64,000 nt of DNA from Parascardovia denticolens DSM 10105 = JCM 12538 (lineage in GTDB: Bacteria; Actinomycetota; Actinomycetes; Actinomycetales; Bifidobacteriaceae), in NCBI RefSeq assembly GCF_001042675.1, contig NZ_AP012333.1, forward strand, positions 992,001 to 1,056,000. The letters are read 5' to 3'. Both the position numbers and the translations under genes were made by a program. The notes beneath the pieces are model-generated. The model saw only the letters and a list, made by a program, of their open reading frames with translations, was not told the DNA's origin and made no database searches. Every line of letters starts with the position of its first letter. Positions within the stretch are counted from its first letter, which is position 1. This document shows, in pieces, positions 12,625 through 15,818 of this stretch.

Positions 12625-13779
12625 TCAGCCCCGTCTACTATGGTTCACATTCCAAGCTCCGTCCAAAAGGCCTCTCGTTGCAGCAGCTTCAATATCATTA
12701 AACCAACTGATTGCTTTTGAACCACGATATCCACAATGTTTCCAATTTGAATCAAAGAGTTTTGGATTATAGCCTTTCCTCACATCTCCTACGGCCTGTG
12801 AGATATCGCCAGCCGTATCCCAACAACTATAAAGTTTTCCATCGCTCGCGACAACAAGACCTGCTCTCTCAAAAGGATCCCCACATGTGCCGCAGTGCAT
12901 GCGCATAAATTTGGTTGATGCATGCAGTTCATTTTCTGCAAGCAATTTATAGATATGGTAAATTTGTCTAATCAATTCTCCTTTTTCCCAATTTGAATCA
13001 TGATAGCTGTCAGTATCATCGATAAGTGCAAGGTTAATCCGAGCATGCTTACCTATCATGGTTCTTGATAAATCAATAATTAATTCATCAATGCTCCTGA
13101 GGTTTTGACTCGTTACATTAATTCTTATATTAAGTTTAATTCCACTGCCAACGACTAGTTTACATGCATTCATCACTTGACGATACGTTCCTCTGCCACT
13201 CCGATTTTTTCGGAATTTATTATGAAAATAAGAATTACCATCAAACGTAATCTGTACTTCATTACAGCCAATTTTATCGAGTATCTGCAGCGAATTGGGA
13301 GATATAAGAGTCCCATTTGTAATAACTGACACAGAACGAATTTGTATAAGAGCTCTCAGCTCCTTTACAAAGTCTCCAATATCATCTAAATACATGAGAG
13401 GTTCACCACCTAATAGAGACAAATCAATTTGTTTCATTCTTGCCCGATTCATTTCAGCAAAAATAAAATTTGCTATCTCTCTCTTATCACATATGTCTTT
13501 TTTGTGAATAGTCAGCTTCCAAATTCCTTTCTGCTCTTTTAAACTTTCGTGCTTTTGGTAACAATATGAGCAGGTGAGGTTACATGCGAACCCCGGATGA
13601 TAGGCAACGGCGAATGCCGAGTCCCATGAGGACGAGGGGAAAACACCGCTTAAAGATGCTAAAGCCTCAGCGAATCGTTCATTGCTGAAAAGCCAAGCCA
13701 GTAAGTTTGGACATATCGCCGACATCGTATTCGTCGCAATAAGAGATGTGTGGCGACCCGTAATAACCGTTAGAGACAT
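12625..13779 (-). CDS. Radical SAM peptide-maturase-like enzyme with C-terminal cysteine cluster
   Basis: A 384-residue radical SAM protein. C66, C70 and C73 form CNLTCSYC, the [4Fe-4S] site that cleaves S-adenosylmethionine, and SLLGGEPLMY (about 121-130) is the SAM-contacting GGE motif. The C-terminal part has C296, C299, C319 and C349, with ASDGKLYSCW like SPASM/Twitch domains. Four cysteines suggest one auxiliary cluster, not two. Such enzymes commonly cross-link or epimerise ribosomal peptides. The gene is AT-rich, unlike its neighbours, and follows a 27-codon gene and an ABC exporter on the same strand, so a role in modifying that peptide is inferred. A modest AGGCGG lies before the ATG at 13779. 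The substrate and chemistry are unknown. Confidence 0.9.
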   Translation of the reverse strand: MSLTVITGRHTSLIATNTMSAICPNLLAWLFSNERFAEALASLSGVFPSSSWDSAFAVAYHPGFACNLTCSYCYQKHESLKEQKGIWKLTIHKKDICDKREIANFIFAEMNRARMKQIDLSLLGGEPLMYLDDIGDFVKELRALIQIRSVSVITNGTLISPNSLQILDKIGCNEVQITFDGNSYFHNKFRKNRSGRGTYRQVMNACKLVVGSGIKLNIRINVTSQNLRSIDELIIDLSRTMIGKHARINLALIDDTDSYHDSNWEKGELIRQIYHIYKLLAENELHASTKFMRMHCGTCGDPFERAGLVVASDGKLYSCWDTAGDISQAVGDVRKGYNPKLFDSNWKHCGYRGSKAISWFNDIEAAATRGLLDGAWNVNHSRRG

Positions 13780-13800
13780 ATAATACCGCCTAAATCGTTA

Positions 13801-13848
13801 TAGATTGTCTGGTGACTAGTTATGCCACGTAGTCACCAGACAATTCTA
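13801..13848 (-). other. Long hairpin between the peptide gene and the radical SAM gene
   Basis: Arms 13801-13818 and 13830-13848 pair over 15 perfect bases (ATTGTCTGGTGACTA), extended to 18-19 with one bulge, around an 11-base loop. No T-run follows on either strand, so it is not a typical terminator. Its place after a candidate precursor gene and before its enzyme fits an mRNA-processing or attenuating hairpin that would keep peptide output above enzyme output. Confidence 0.75.
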
Positions 13849-13879
13849 GGGAAAAGACAAAGCAAAGCAATAATCACTG

Positions 13880-13963
13880 CTACCTATGCCTTGCTCCACA
13901 CTTATCATCCCACCGCATCGGCTTAATCTTGATATTTAGAAGTCCAAGCAATTTTTTAATCAT
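13880..13963 (-). CDS. 27-residue candidate RiPP precursor peptide
   Basis: A short gene missed by length cut-offs. AAAGGAGGTGACTCAA, a near-perfect Shine-Dalgarno sequence, precedes ATG at 13963 by 7 bases. The SD itself is made by the exporter's last Lys-Gly-Gly-Asp codons, and the start overlaps the exporter stop (ATGATTAA), so translation is probably coupled. The product begins MIKKLLGLLNIKIKP, an amphipathic basic leader-like half, and ends MRWDDKCGARHR before TAG at 13880. The second half has one Trp, one Cys, two Asp and a basic tail. There is no Gly-Gly processing site. Position between an exporter and a radical SAM/auxiliary-cluster enzyme suggests a modified peptide; the modification is unknown. 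A chance ORF is the alternative, but the ribosome site argues against it. Confidence 0.7.
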   Translation of the reverse strand: MIKKLLGLLNIKIKPMRWDDKCGARHR

Positions 13964-15818
13964 TTGAGTCACCTCCTTTCAGTTGGTAATTAAAGAGACT
14001 ATTGAAGACTGGACTATGTTGAACAAGTTCGTCATATGTACCGCAATCAACAATCGTCCCAGAGTCAAAAATATAAATCATATCAGCAGCTTTGAGTGTC
14101 CAGGCCCGGTGGGTCACCAGGATGGTCAGCTTGTCTTTCCCTCGTTTCTTCAGTTCGTGGATGATCTCCTCTTCGGCGGCGGAATCGACGTTGCTGGTCG
14201 GTTCGTCGAAAACACGGACCGGGGCGTCCTGGACCAGGCTGCGGGCGATGGCCAGCCGCTGCCATTGTCCGCCTGAAAGATCGGCCCCGTCCCATTGAGC
14301 CCCCAACTGAGTGTCCAATCCGTCCGGCAGAGAGCGAACCAGATCTGCTTCACCGACCGATTCCAAGGAATCCCAGAGAAGCCTTTCCCGATCAGTCCGA
14401 TTTCCGCCGCTGTCTGCCCTCCCTCTTCCTAAAGAGAGGTTTTCCCGAACCGTGAATTCGAAGTGGTTGTAATCCTGAACCATGAAGGACATGATCTCCG
14501 ACTTCTTTTTCGGGCTCAGCTGGGACAGGTCGATTGTTTGGCTGATGGGCTTTCCCCGGCTTTGGCCTGATTTGAAAATCATGGAACCAGCCTGGGGCTT
14601 GACTGCCCCGGACAGGCATTTCAAAAGCGTGGTCTTACCGGCTCCGTTGCGCCCGACGAAAGCGATGAACTCGCCTTTCTTCGCCTTGAGGGACACATCA
14701 TGGACGGCGGAGGCGTCAGCCTGTGGATAGGTGAAGGAAAGACCCGACAGGTCCAGTTCGAAATCGGCCTCCGGCGTCAGAAGCACGCCAGAGGAGAGTT
14801 CAGCGACTCCCTGACCCTTTGTCGCTATCCTTGGTATCGGAGGTTTCTCAGCCACCAACTTCTGCAAGCTGGAAATGGAGATGGAGGCCTGGACCATGTT
14901 GCCCAGCTCGTAGGCGACGCTGGCGGTTGCCTGCATGCCGGAGAGGACCCCCACGACCGACCCGGCTATGAGAGAGGGAGAAGCCCCTTCATAGAGGAGG
15001 GAGATGATGGCAAGGATCAGCAAGGCGCCGGAGACGACGCCGGCGACAAGGTCCGATTCCAAGCCAACCCGCTCGATCCCCTGGCTTAGTTCGCGTTGCC
15101 TGCGGTAGCAGGGCCGGGCCTTGCGGGCGACGAATCCCTGGGCTCCCAGAGTCGCCAGCTCGACGGCTGGACGTTCATAAGTGAGCTGGTTCTCCAGATA
15201 TTCCCCATACCGACGGCTGCGCATGACCTTCGGCCATGTTCTTTGATCGAACTCCGCATAGACCATGGTGCCTATGACCGAGGGGAAAAGGCAGAGGAGG
15301 ACGAGGATTGCGGCGACCCAGCTGGCCCGCCAAATCGTCACCATCAAGCTCAGACAAACGATCACGGAGGTGAAGACGGCGTTGATCGCCGCCACCTGCA
15401 GGGTGATGCTTCCCGAATTGACGGCTTCACGCGCCTGCCGCGCCAGATCGCCTTCCTCCTGGCTCCCGATTTCGTCTGGTCGCCTGCGAGACAAGGCCTC
15501 ATTGATGGAGTTACGGCACCATTCGACCATGGGATTCTGGGTCATCCGCCACAAGTCGGAGACCACATTCCTCAATCCCAAATACCCTGCCACCAGGACC
15601 CCGGTGATGACGGACCAGGTCAGAGCCCGTGGACGACCGGGGAGGGAGAGGGCTTCGGTGAGCTTCCCAACCGATACCGTTTGCAGGCTGGGGACCAGGG
15701 ATGCGACCAGACCCAGAATCAAAGCGGGAAGAACAAAACGCCAAGATGATTTAAATGCGACCCGGACGCACCAGGCGCAGGAGGAAAGAACCGTTCGCAT
15801 TCGCTTCATATATGCCAT
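13956..15818 (-). CDS. ABC exporter with fused membrane and ATPase domains
   Basis: A 620-residue exporter: an N-terminal half with about six membrane segments (first at about residues 25-45), then an ATPase domain. Walker A GRNGAGKTT is near residue 388, signature DLSGGQWQRLAI near 512, Walker B VRVFDEPTSNVD near 535, and the H-loop histidine in VTHRAW near 567. There is no C39 peptidase domain, so it would not cleave a leader itself. It heads the operon with the 27-residue peptide and the radical SAM gene and may export or give immunity to the product. The last ~140 bases, from about 14,096 down, switch from GC-rich to AT-rich, a probable recombination junction. GAAAGGAAGGA precedes the ATG at 15818; an ATG at 15809 is also possible. 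Confidence 0.93.
   Translation of the reverse strand: MAYMKRMRTVLSSCAWCVRVAFKSSWRFVLPALILGLVASLVPSLQTVSVGKLTEALSLPGRPRALTWSVITGVLVAGYLGLRNVVSDLWRMTQNPMVEWCRNSINEALSRRRPDEIGSQEEGDLARQAREAVNSGSITLQVAAINAVFTSVIVCLSLMVTIWRASWVAAILVLLCLFPSVIGTMVYAEFDQRTWPKVMRSRRYGEYLENQLTYERPAVELATLGAQGFVARKARPCYRRQRELSQGIERVGLESDLVAGVVSGALLILAIISLLYEGASPSLIAGSVVGVLSGMQATASVAYELGNMVQASISISSLQKLVAEKPPIPRIATKGQGVAELSSGVLLTPEADFELDLSGLSFTYPQADASAVHDVSLKAKKGEFIAFVGRNGAGKTTLLKCLSGAVKPQAGSMIFKSGQSRGKPISQTIDLSQLSPKKKSEIMSFMVQDYNHFEFTVRENLSLGRGRADSGGNRTDRERLLWDSLESVGEADLVRSLPDGLDTQLGAQWDGADLSGGQWQRLAIARSLVQDAPVRVFDEPTSNVDSAAEEEIIHELKKRGKDKLTILVTHRAWTLKAADMIYIFDSGTIVDCGTYDELVQHSPVFNSLFNYQLKGGDSND

Follow-up and report, generated by a model that had tools for sequence, protein, structure and literature searches.

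Streptide-type streptococcal RiPPs are specified by a three-gene cassette in which a very short precursor stands with a radical SAM (rSAM) enzyme and an exporter, and the enzyme of this type, SuiB, is a SPASM protein that joins Lys to Trp. The sactipeptide/ranthipeptide maturases CteB, SkfB and PapB are rSAM enzymes with an N-terminal peptide-binding domain and act on Cys-bearing substrates. PapB is described as linking Cys to Asp or Glu (PMC9413430). SkfB is described as an RRE-bearing thioether synthase that carries a Twitch domain only, and so sets a precedent for enzymes of the Twitch type (PMC6231123).

Here we describe a locus of Parascardovia denticolens DSM 10105 = JCM 12538 that lies in a stretch of 64,000 nucleotides (NZ_AP012333.1, positions 992,001 to 1,056,000), hereafter called the window. 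Like the streptide cassette, it places a very short precursor beside an rSAM enzyme and an exporter; as in CteB, SkfB and PapB, the enzyme appears to have an N-terminal peptide-binding domain and to act on a Cys-bearing substrate. In contrast to these three systems, the substrates of the window enzyme and its closest relatives, the window clade, are only 22-37 aa long and usually hold one core Cys, with an Asp ahead of it (DDKC). We put at roughly 80% the probability that the following reading holds as a whole: a minimal RiPP precursor has its leader bound by the rSAM enzyme and its core cross-linked, the product leaves through the ABC exporter, and an RNA hairpin has a role in the locus. The features are collected in Table 1.

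Table 1. Features of the exporter-peptide-rSAM locus (positions of the window)
Feature	Position	Strand	Basis
Radical SAM peptide maturase, 384 aa	12625..13779	(-)	Pfam PF04055; alignments; AlphaFold2 model and PDB comparison
A+T-rich patch: rSAM gene, peptide gene and last ~130 nt of the exporter gene	12650..14090		Composition; neighbourhood ~60% G+C
Perfect 15-bp inverted repeat with 11-nt spacer, RNA hairpin without T-tract	13804..13844	(-)	Repeat search and folding; lies between peptide and rSAM genes
27-aa peptide gene, predicted precursor, MIKKLLGLLNIKIKPMRWDDKCGARHR	13880..13963	(-)	ORF; homologous peptides adjoining related rSAM genes
Putative core RWDDKCGARHR	13883..13915	(-)	RWDDKC common to the G918 peptide; cleavage site predicted
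Shine-Dalgarno AAAGGAGGTGA	13969..13979	(-)	Sequence; inside the exporter's Lys-Gly-Gly-Asp codons
ABC exporter with fused ATPase, 620 aa, end ...QLKGGDSND	13956..15818	(-)	Pfam/NCBIfam profiles and alignment

Results

The peptide gene and its ribosome-binding site

An earlier note on this DNA had placed a 27-residue ORF at 13880-13963, overlapping the exporter stop, with its Shine-Dalgarno (SD) sequence within the last exporter codons, and our analysis recovered all three elements. The minus strand reads CAA CTG AAA GGA GGT GAC TCA AAT GAT TAA AAA; the peptide ATG, at 13963, comes 8 nt after GGAGG, the ORF of 84 bp (27 codons) ends at 13880, and its overlap with the exporter end is 8 nt, as ATGATTAA across the exporter stop. 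Pairing of the SD with an assumed 16S 3' tail sequence gave a duplex energy of -21.3 kcal/mol, the strongest of all 2360 ATGs when both strands of the window are counted (runner-up, -18.8 kcal/mol). The decamer AAGGAGGTGA occurs without mismatch at three places in the window, the peptide SD among them. A length of 27 codons is by itself unremarkable; the strength of the ribosome-binding site is remarkable. The N-terminal ~15 residues of the peptide are amphipathic, basic and rich in leucine and lysine, and the peptide had no match in Pfam or NCBIfam. As the earlier note had pointed out, the 27 residues contain no Gly-Gly site; moreover, the exporter gave no C39 peptidase match in Pfam up to E 1, so neither mark of double-glycine leader processing was found. 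The published annotation of the JCM 12538 chromosome removed genes shorter than 120 bp (PMC4432353), and an 84-bp gene could therefore not appear in it.

Homologous peptides beside related rSAM genes

Four other loci, in Rothia (L192) and in the genomes G918 (L276), G1077 and G1207 (L282), carry in this order a short ORF, a hairpin, an rSAM relative and an exporter of the window type. The exporter comes first only in the window locus, which is why the SD lies inside the exporter gene there; since the other four precursors stand ahead of the rSAM gene, the overlap of exporter and peptide is peculiar to the window. In Rothia, a 37-aa ORF, MVKFMCNLFGIEIVPAGGGRCADHCGGRMPIPGQKPL, directly precedes the rSAM gene, which is followed by two ABC exporters. 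Of the 75 short ORFs in its locus, this one matched the window peptide best, with a score of 41 that none of 20000 and none of 5000 shuffles equalled. The best of 1392 short ORFs from unrelated loci reached 38, so the Rothia score alone is no proof. The G918 peptide, MFRKIAEALGIDVVIRWDDKCPAYRR, which also precedes its rSAM gene, scored 55 against the window peptide (0/5000 shuffles as good); RWDDKC is identical in the two, and this core is better kept than the leader. The G1077 peptide, MLLALLRKLGFGTFTPMDDKCP, is close to that of G918 (0/5000 shuffles), weakly similar to the window peptide (51/5000) and not significantly similar to the Rothia one (4114/5000). The rSAM and exporter genes of G1077 are broken, each being split across two frames. 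In G1207 the leader resembles that of G1077 and the rSAM gene is open; the short ORF, which has no Cys, shifts out of the core frame behind a run of G. The frame departs at seven consecutive G (L282 5463-5579), which may reflect an assembly error, phase variation or decay. The earlier note had named an rSAM gene kept beside a broken ORF in other strains as evidence against a precursor; the one such pair seen here belongs to another species, G1207, rather than to another strain.

Overall, a short precursor gene and its modifying enzyme are kept together across species at five loci, with the core out of frame in one (G1207). The Cys is retained in four of the five precursors, in these always with an Asp as the second residue ahead of it (DDKC; ADHC in Rothia), and Trp occurs in only two, being absent from the Rothia and G1077 peptides. 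The SDs of the four other precursors gave -8.2 (Rothia), -20.3 (G918), -21.7 (G1077) and -19.4 kcal/mol (G1207). One could argue that the short ORF is not a gene and that the KGGD codons spell an SD by accident, since a broken exporter in the sister species G001 keeps AAAGGAGGCGA and KGGD with no comparable peptide behind them, and since the G1207 ORF loses its core. We consider this extremely improbable, given that the SD is the strongest among 2360 ATGs and that homologous peptides occupy the corresponding position next to related rSAM genes. The latter is the strongest evidence against chance, and on it we take the peptide ORF to be a real gene. The same homology supports the proposal, made earlier from the window alone, of a short precursor for the neighbouring enzyme, and with high confidence we regard the peptide as the predicted substrate of the adjacent rSAM enzyme.

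A hairpin separates the precursor and rSAM genes

A hairpin lies between precursor and rSAM gene in all five loci, and the five sequences are unrelated. Stretches of 100-102 nt (125 nt in G1207, starting inside the ORF) folded with energies of -33.7 (window), -39.3 (Rothia), -41.7 (G918), -33.2 (G1077) and -47.8 kcal/mol (G1207). Compared with shuffled sequences, the respective z values were -5.3, -3.6, -1.6, -2.1 and -3.9, so that two of the five hairpins, with -1.6 and -2.1, are weak. A scan of 13700-14300 found neither a terminator nor an internal promoter, and the window hairpin is thus not a plain terminator. An Rfam search gave only two matches, far below threshold.

The rSAM enzyme is Twitch-like

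The enzyme matched the radical SAM core in Pfam together with a single-cluster Fer4 model. We aligned it with 38 of the best 80 of 329 relatives (see below). The CxxxCxxC motif (C66, C70 and C73 in the window) is present in all 39 rows, as are the auxiliary Cys296, Cys299 and Cys349; Cys319 is kept in 35 rows and replaced by Ser in four. The SPASM motif is given as CX9-15GX4C-gap-CX2CX5CX3C-gap-C (PMC6231123). Its seven Cys are found in none of the 39 rows, and the window enzyme has one Cys after C319; unlike SPASM maturases, the window clade thus lacks the second Cys set. The arrangement C299-x14-G314-x4-C319 followed by C349 is of the Twitch type, and its CX9-15GX4C half was found in 34 of the 39 rows. 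From these motifs, the enzyme is Twitch-like, with one predicted auxiliary cluster. Truncation of its 3' end against the ABC-F gene was considered and rejected, as relatives from Streptomyces and Rothia have the same C-terminal region; the rSAM protein of genome G404 likewise ends like the window enzyme, which is therefore not cut short.

The best NCBIfam models were CefB, TIGR04463, Clo7bot and PapB, at 90-108 bits against cut-offs of 340-600 (PapB, 90.7 against 340), so that in contrast to the sactipeptide/ranthipeptide maturases all scores fall far below the curated limits. An AlphaFold2 model (mean pLDDT 80.3, pTM 0.82; residues 71-90, including part of the cluster loop, below 50) matched CteB best in the PDB (Z 21.5, rmsd 4.6, 334 aligned, residues 1-377), then anSME, ChlB and SkfB; SuiB scored lower (Z 14.7). 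The N-terminal strands and helices of the model resemble an RRE, as judged by the CteB rows and the order of strands and helices, since the PDB list barely tests residues outside 49-376. The enzyme is 37% identical to that of G918 and 35% identical to that of Rothia. Window, Rothia, G918 and G1207 form one group, with 99/98 support, in a tree whose branches are long and for which the program issued a warning.

Which bond would such an enzyme make? A Cys-centred cross-link fits, because four of the five precursors retain the Cys and, in fold, the enzyme comes nearest to CteB, a thioether synthase; the thioether had been one of two guesses in the earlier note. We give a Cys thioether about even odds, and a thioether from the Cys to the Asp before it would be a bolder guess than the thioether itself. 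The PapB substrate motif is Cys-X3-Asp/Glu, whereas the window core has Asp before Cys and none after. The other guess, a three-residue cyclophane at Trp-Asp-Asp, would make the peptide an rSAM substrate with a carbon-carbon bond. WDD is indeed present in window and G918, wider-family precursors commonly have Trp beside Cys, and the cyclophane formers FxsB, YhhB and DynA show weak profile similarity to the window enzyme over the rSAM core. However, an aromatic residue is not kept in the window-clade precursors and the conserved aromatic-X-X of triceptides was not found, the Rothia core having no Trp, Tyr or Phe and the G1077 peptide no Trp, and the best enzyme models are maturases of Cys-bearing peptides. 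The cyclophane is therefore left without support and appears distinctly unlikely.

A wider actinobacterial family

A search of 189 genomes of the same family at E 1e-15 matched two, P. denticolens itself and G043 (30% identity), and no close relative. A phylum sample of 396 genomes at E 1e-22 added one relative, G404 (E 1e-29), whose rSAM gene is preceded by an ORF with three WCGVHQ repeats; in the genus of G404, 18 of 295 genomes carry the family. The window enzyme alone drew 32 stretches and no relative from genome contigs, and an alignment of it with three such enzymes drew 329 relatives, with Rothia sp. RSM386 at the top (38%). At the order level, the Rothia enzyme matched four of 347 genomes (P. 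denticolens, Rothia (G913), G918 and G1077), and family-level searches matched 1/47, 2/131 and 1/120 genomes, adding G1207. The 100 plasmid records listed were all below 60% identity, and among the matches listed from viral contigs, searched with a mixed alignment, there were only distant rSAM proteins.

A leader-motif regular expression picked out candidate EVVAH-type precursors, some of them chance ORFs, in 51 of 80 loci (the best 80 of the 329) and none in the other 29. These candidates typically end in WCGVHQE, ICGVYDKE, CIVNNSSDL or WCVINN. No NCBIfam match was obtained for six precursors taken from the window clade and the wider family, and four of them, also compared with Pfam, had none there; core and leader strings of the family were not found in open-licence papers, which is weak evidence. 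According to these comparisons, the window enzyme belongs to an actinobacterial family that we find named in neither Pfam nor NCBIfam. Enzymes of this wider family, from Streptomyces, Micromonospora and others, share with the window the C-terminal region CxxC...CW[DE]T...W..C, and their precursors share a core Cys, often as CG[AV]. The wider-family precursors are ~40-100 aa long with an acidic EVVAH leader and some repeated cores, whereas those of the window clade measure 22-37 aa, and several wider-family loci have MFS exporters where the window clade has ABC exporters.

Several individual loci may be mentioned. Precursors that combine an EVVAH leader with a Cys core, at times repeated or present as several copies, were seen in L160, L189, L214, L212, L257 and others. 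Several Streptomyces members (L185-L187) lie near an MFS-like exporter and what we take, from their sequences, to be a prolyl-oligopeptidase-like gene, the exporter being named in the same way; in L185 a tail that resembles a precursor, EVVAH...ACVINRSNDL, forms the end of the MFS-like protein. A different type of cluster was found in Streptococcus pseudopneumoniae (L262 3785-6513), where an rSAM protein with a SPASM-like tail is directly followed by an ABC transporter.

These distributions also bear on the idea that the peptide is an unmodified signal or a small membrane-active peptide and that the rSAM enzyme acts on another target. Its amphipathic, basic N-terminus and an exporter that could carry a plain peptide speak for this idea. 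Against it, the short ORF travels with the window rSAM clade at five loci, EVVAH-type ORFs with Cys-bearing tails accompany 51 of 80 wider-family enzymes (by regular expression, some spurious), and RWDDKC is better kept than the leader between window and G918; we judge it very improbable.

Genomic setting of the cassette

The exporter-peptide-rSAM cassette is absent from the equivalent site in both sister species, G001 and G002, where an empty gap of ~110 bp separates the ABC-F gene from the LysR gene; in P. denticolens the cassette fills this gap. It was thus gained or lost as a unit. The LysR gene was rejected as a cassette member: it stands between ABC-F and pyrE in both sisters without the cassette, and is therefore a native neighbour. 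Measured over 200-nt sections, G+C content is 33-49% in the rSAM gene, the peptide gene and the final ~130 nt of the exporter gene, and 53-65% in most of the exporter body.

Exporters of the window type adjoin the related rSAM genes in G918, Rothia, G1077 and G1207, and the exporter encoded immediately after the G918 rSAM gene shares 38% identity with that of the window. Nevertheless, an exporter tree (from which row G078, mis-framed with 14 stops, was left out) groups the window exporter with Scardovia and Bifidobacterium (Bifidobacteriaceae) exporters that have no rSAM gene, at a support of 99/99. The exporter may therefore be a local recruit, and its role is less certain. A simple reading of this history would be that a peptide-rSAM pair from elsewhere joined a resident exporter type. 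Exporter relatives in the family were considered as further rSAM carriers and rejected, no rSAM gene being seen in the stretches examined around the exporters of G001, G002, G060, G131, G159, G101, G103 and G167 or around the paralogues in the P. denticolens genome. Short ORFs hidden behind exporter relatives were looked for by eye at six exporter ends.

The earlier note had suggested comparing the KGGDSND end among relatives, uniqueness to peptide loci being taken as a sign of selection. The outcome was mixed: two of nine aligned exporters have a KGG(D) tail, that of the window and the broken remnant in G001, which has no adjacent rSAM gene, and in the other four loci the precursor does not lie in the exporter end. 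The remnant (L052 6995-7668) has a large internal deletion, and no rSAM gene was found in genome G001; it can be read as the trace of a lost copy of the cassette. P. denticolens itself has another exporter of the window type (L047 7327-9168), whose gene is disrupted into several frames and adjoins what looks, from its sequence, like rpoB. It also carries a second A+T-rich rSAM gene (L048 5575-7584, contig 1744574-1746583) whose 423-aa product has the full seven-Cys SPASM motif; a 237-aa ORF without Pfam match precedes it, possibly as part of another peptide cluster.

One may ask whether the peptide and rSAM genes, once active, are now a decaying acquisition in P. denticolens. The strong composition contrast, the broken copies in the relatives G1077 and G001 and the absence from the equivalent site of the sister species would agree with this. 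However, none of the three cassette genes in the window is interrupted, no cluster Cys is missing and both SD and hairpin are intact, and we regard decay as unlikely.

Discussion

We favour the view that the window encodes a working precursor, maturase and exporter. In this scenario, ribosomes that finish the exporter, or that load on the embedded SD, would translate the 27-aa peptide. Its N-terminal ~15 residues would form the leader, bound by the N-terminal domain of the rSAM enzyme, which would then cross-link the C-terminal RWDDKCGARHR. The likeliest bond would be a thioether that connects the only Cys with a residue close by, for instance one of the Asp. The ABC exporter would send the product out, and the leader would be removed by a protease encoded elsewhere. 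The hairpin probably acts either by stabilising the message of the precursor or by keeping rSAM expression low in comparison with it.

More tentatively, these loci might represent a new RiPP class of actinobacteria, whose Twitch-only rSAM enzymes would close a tight ring between the core Cys and the preceding acidic residue (DDKC), the reverse of the PapB order. The window clade would then have shrunk to a precursor of 22-37 aa, a hairpin, a maturase and an exporter, moving between species, with the window locus among the smallest. We hold this extension to be possible, though doubtful.

An 84-bp ORF beyond the reach of annotation becomes a testable gene through these comparisons. They define a Twitch-like maturase clade whose precursors are minimal and which is named in neither Pfam nor NCBIfam, and connect the window locus with an actinobacterial family of several hundred loci (one scan gave 329 relatives). 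Moreover, with so short a substrate, in vitro reconstitution with synthetic peptides would be simple.
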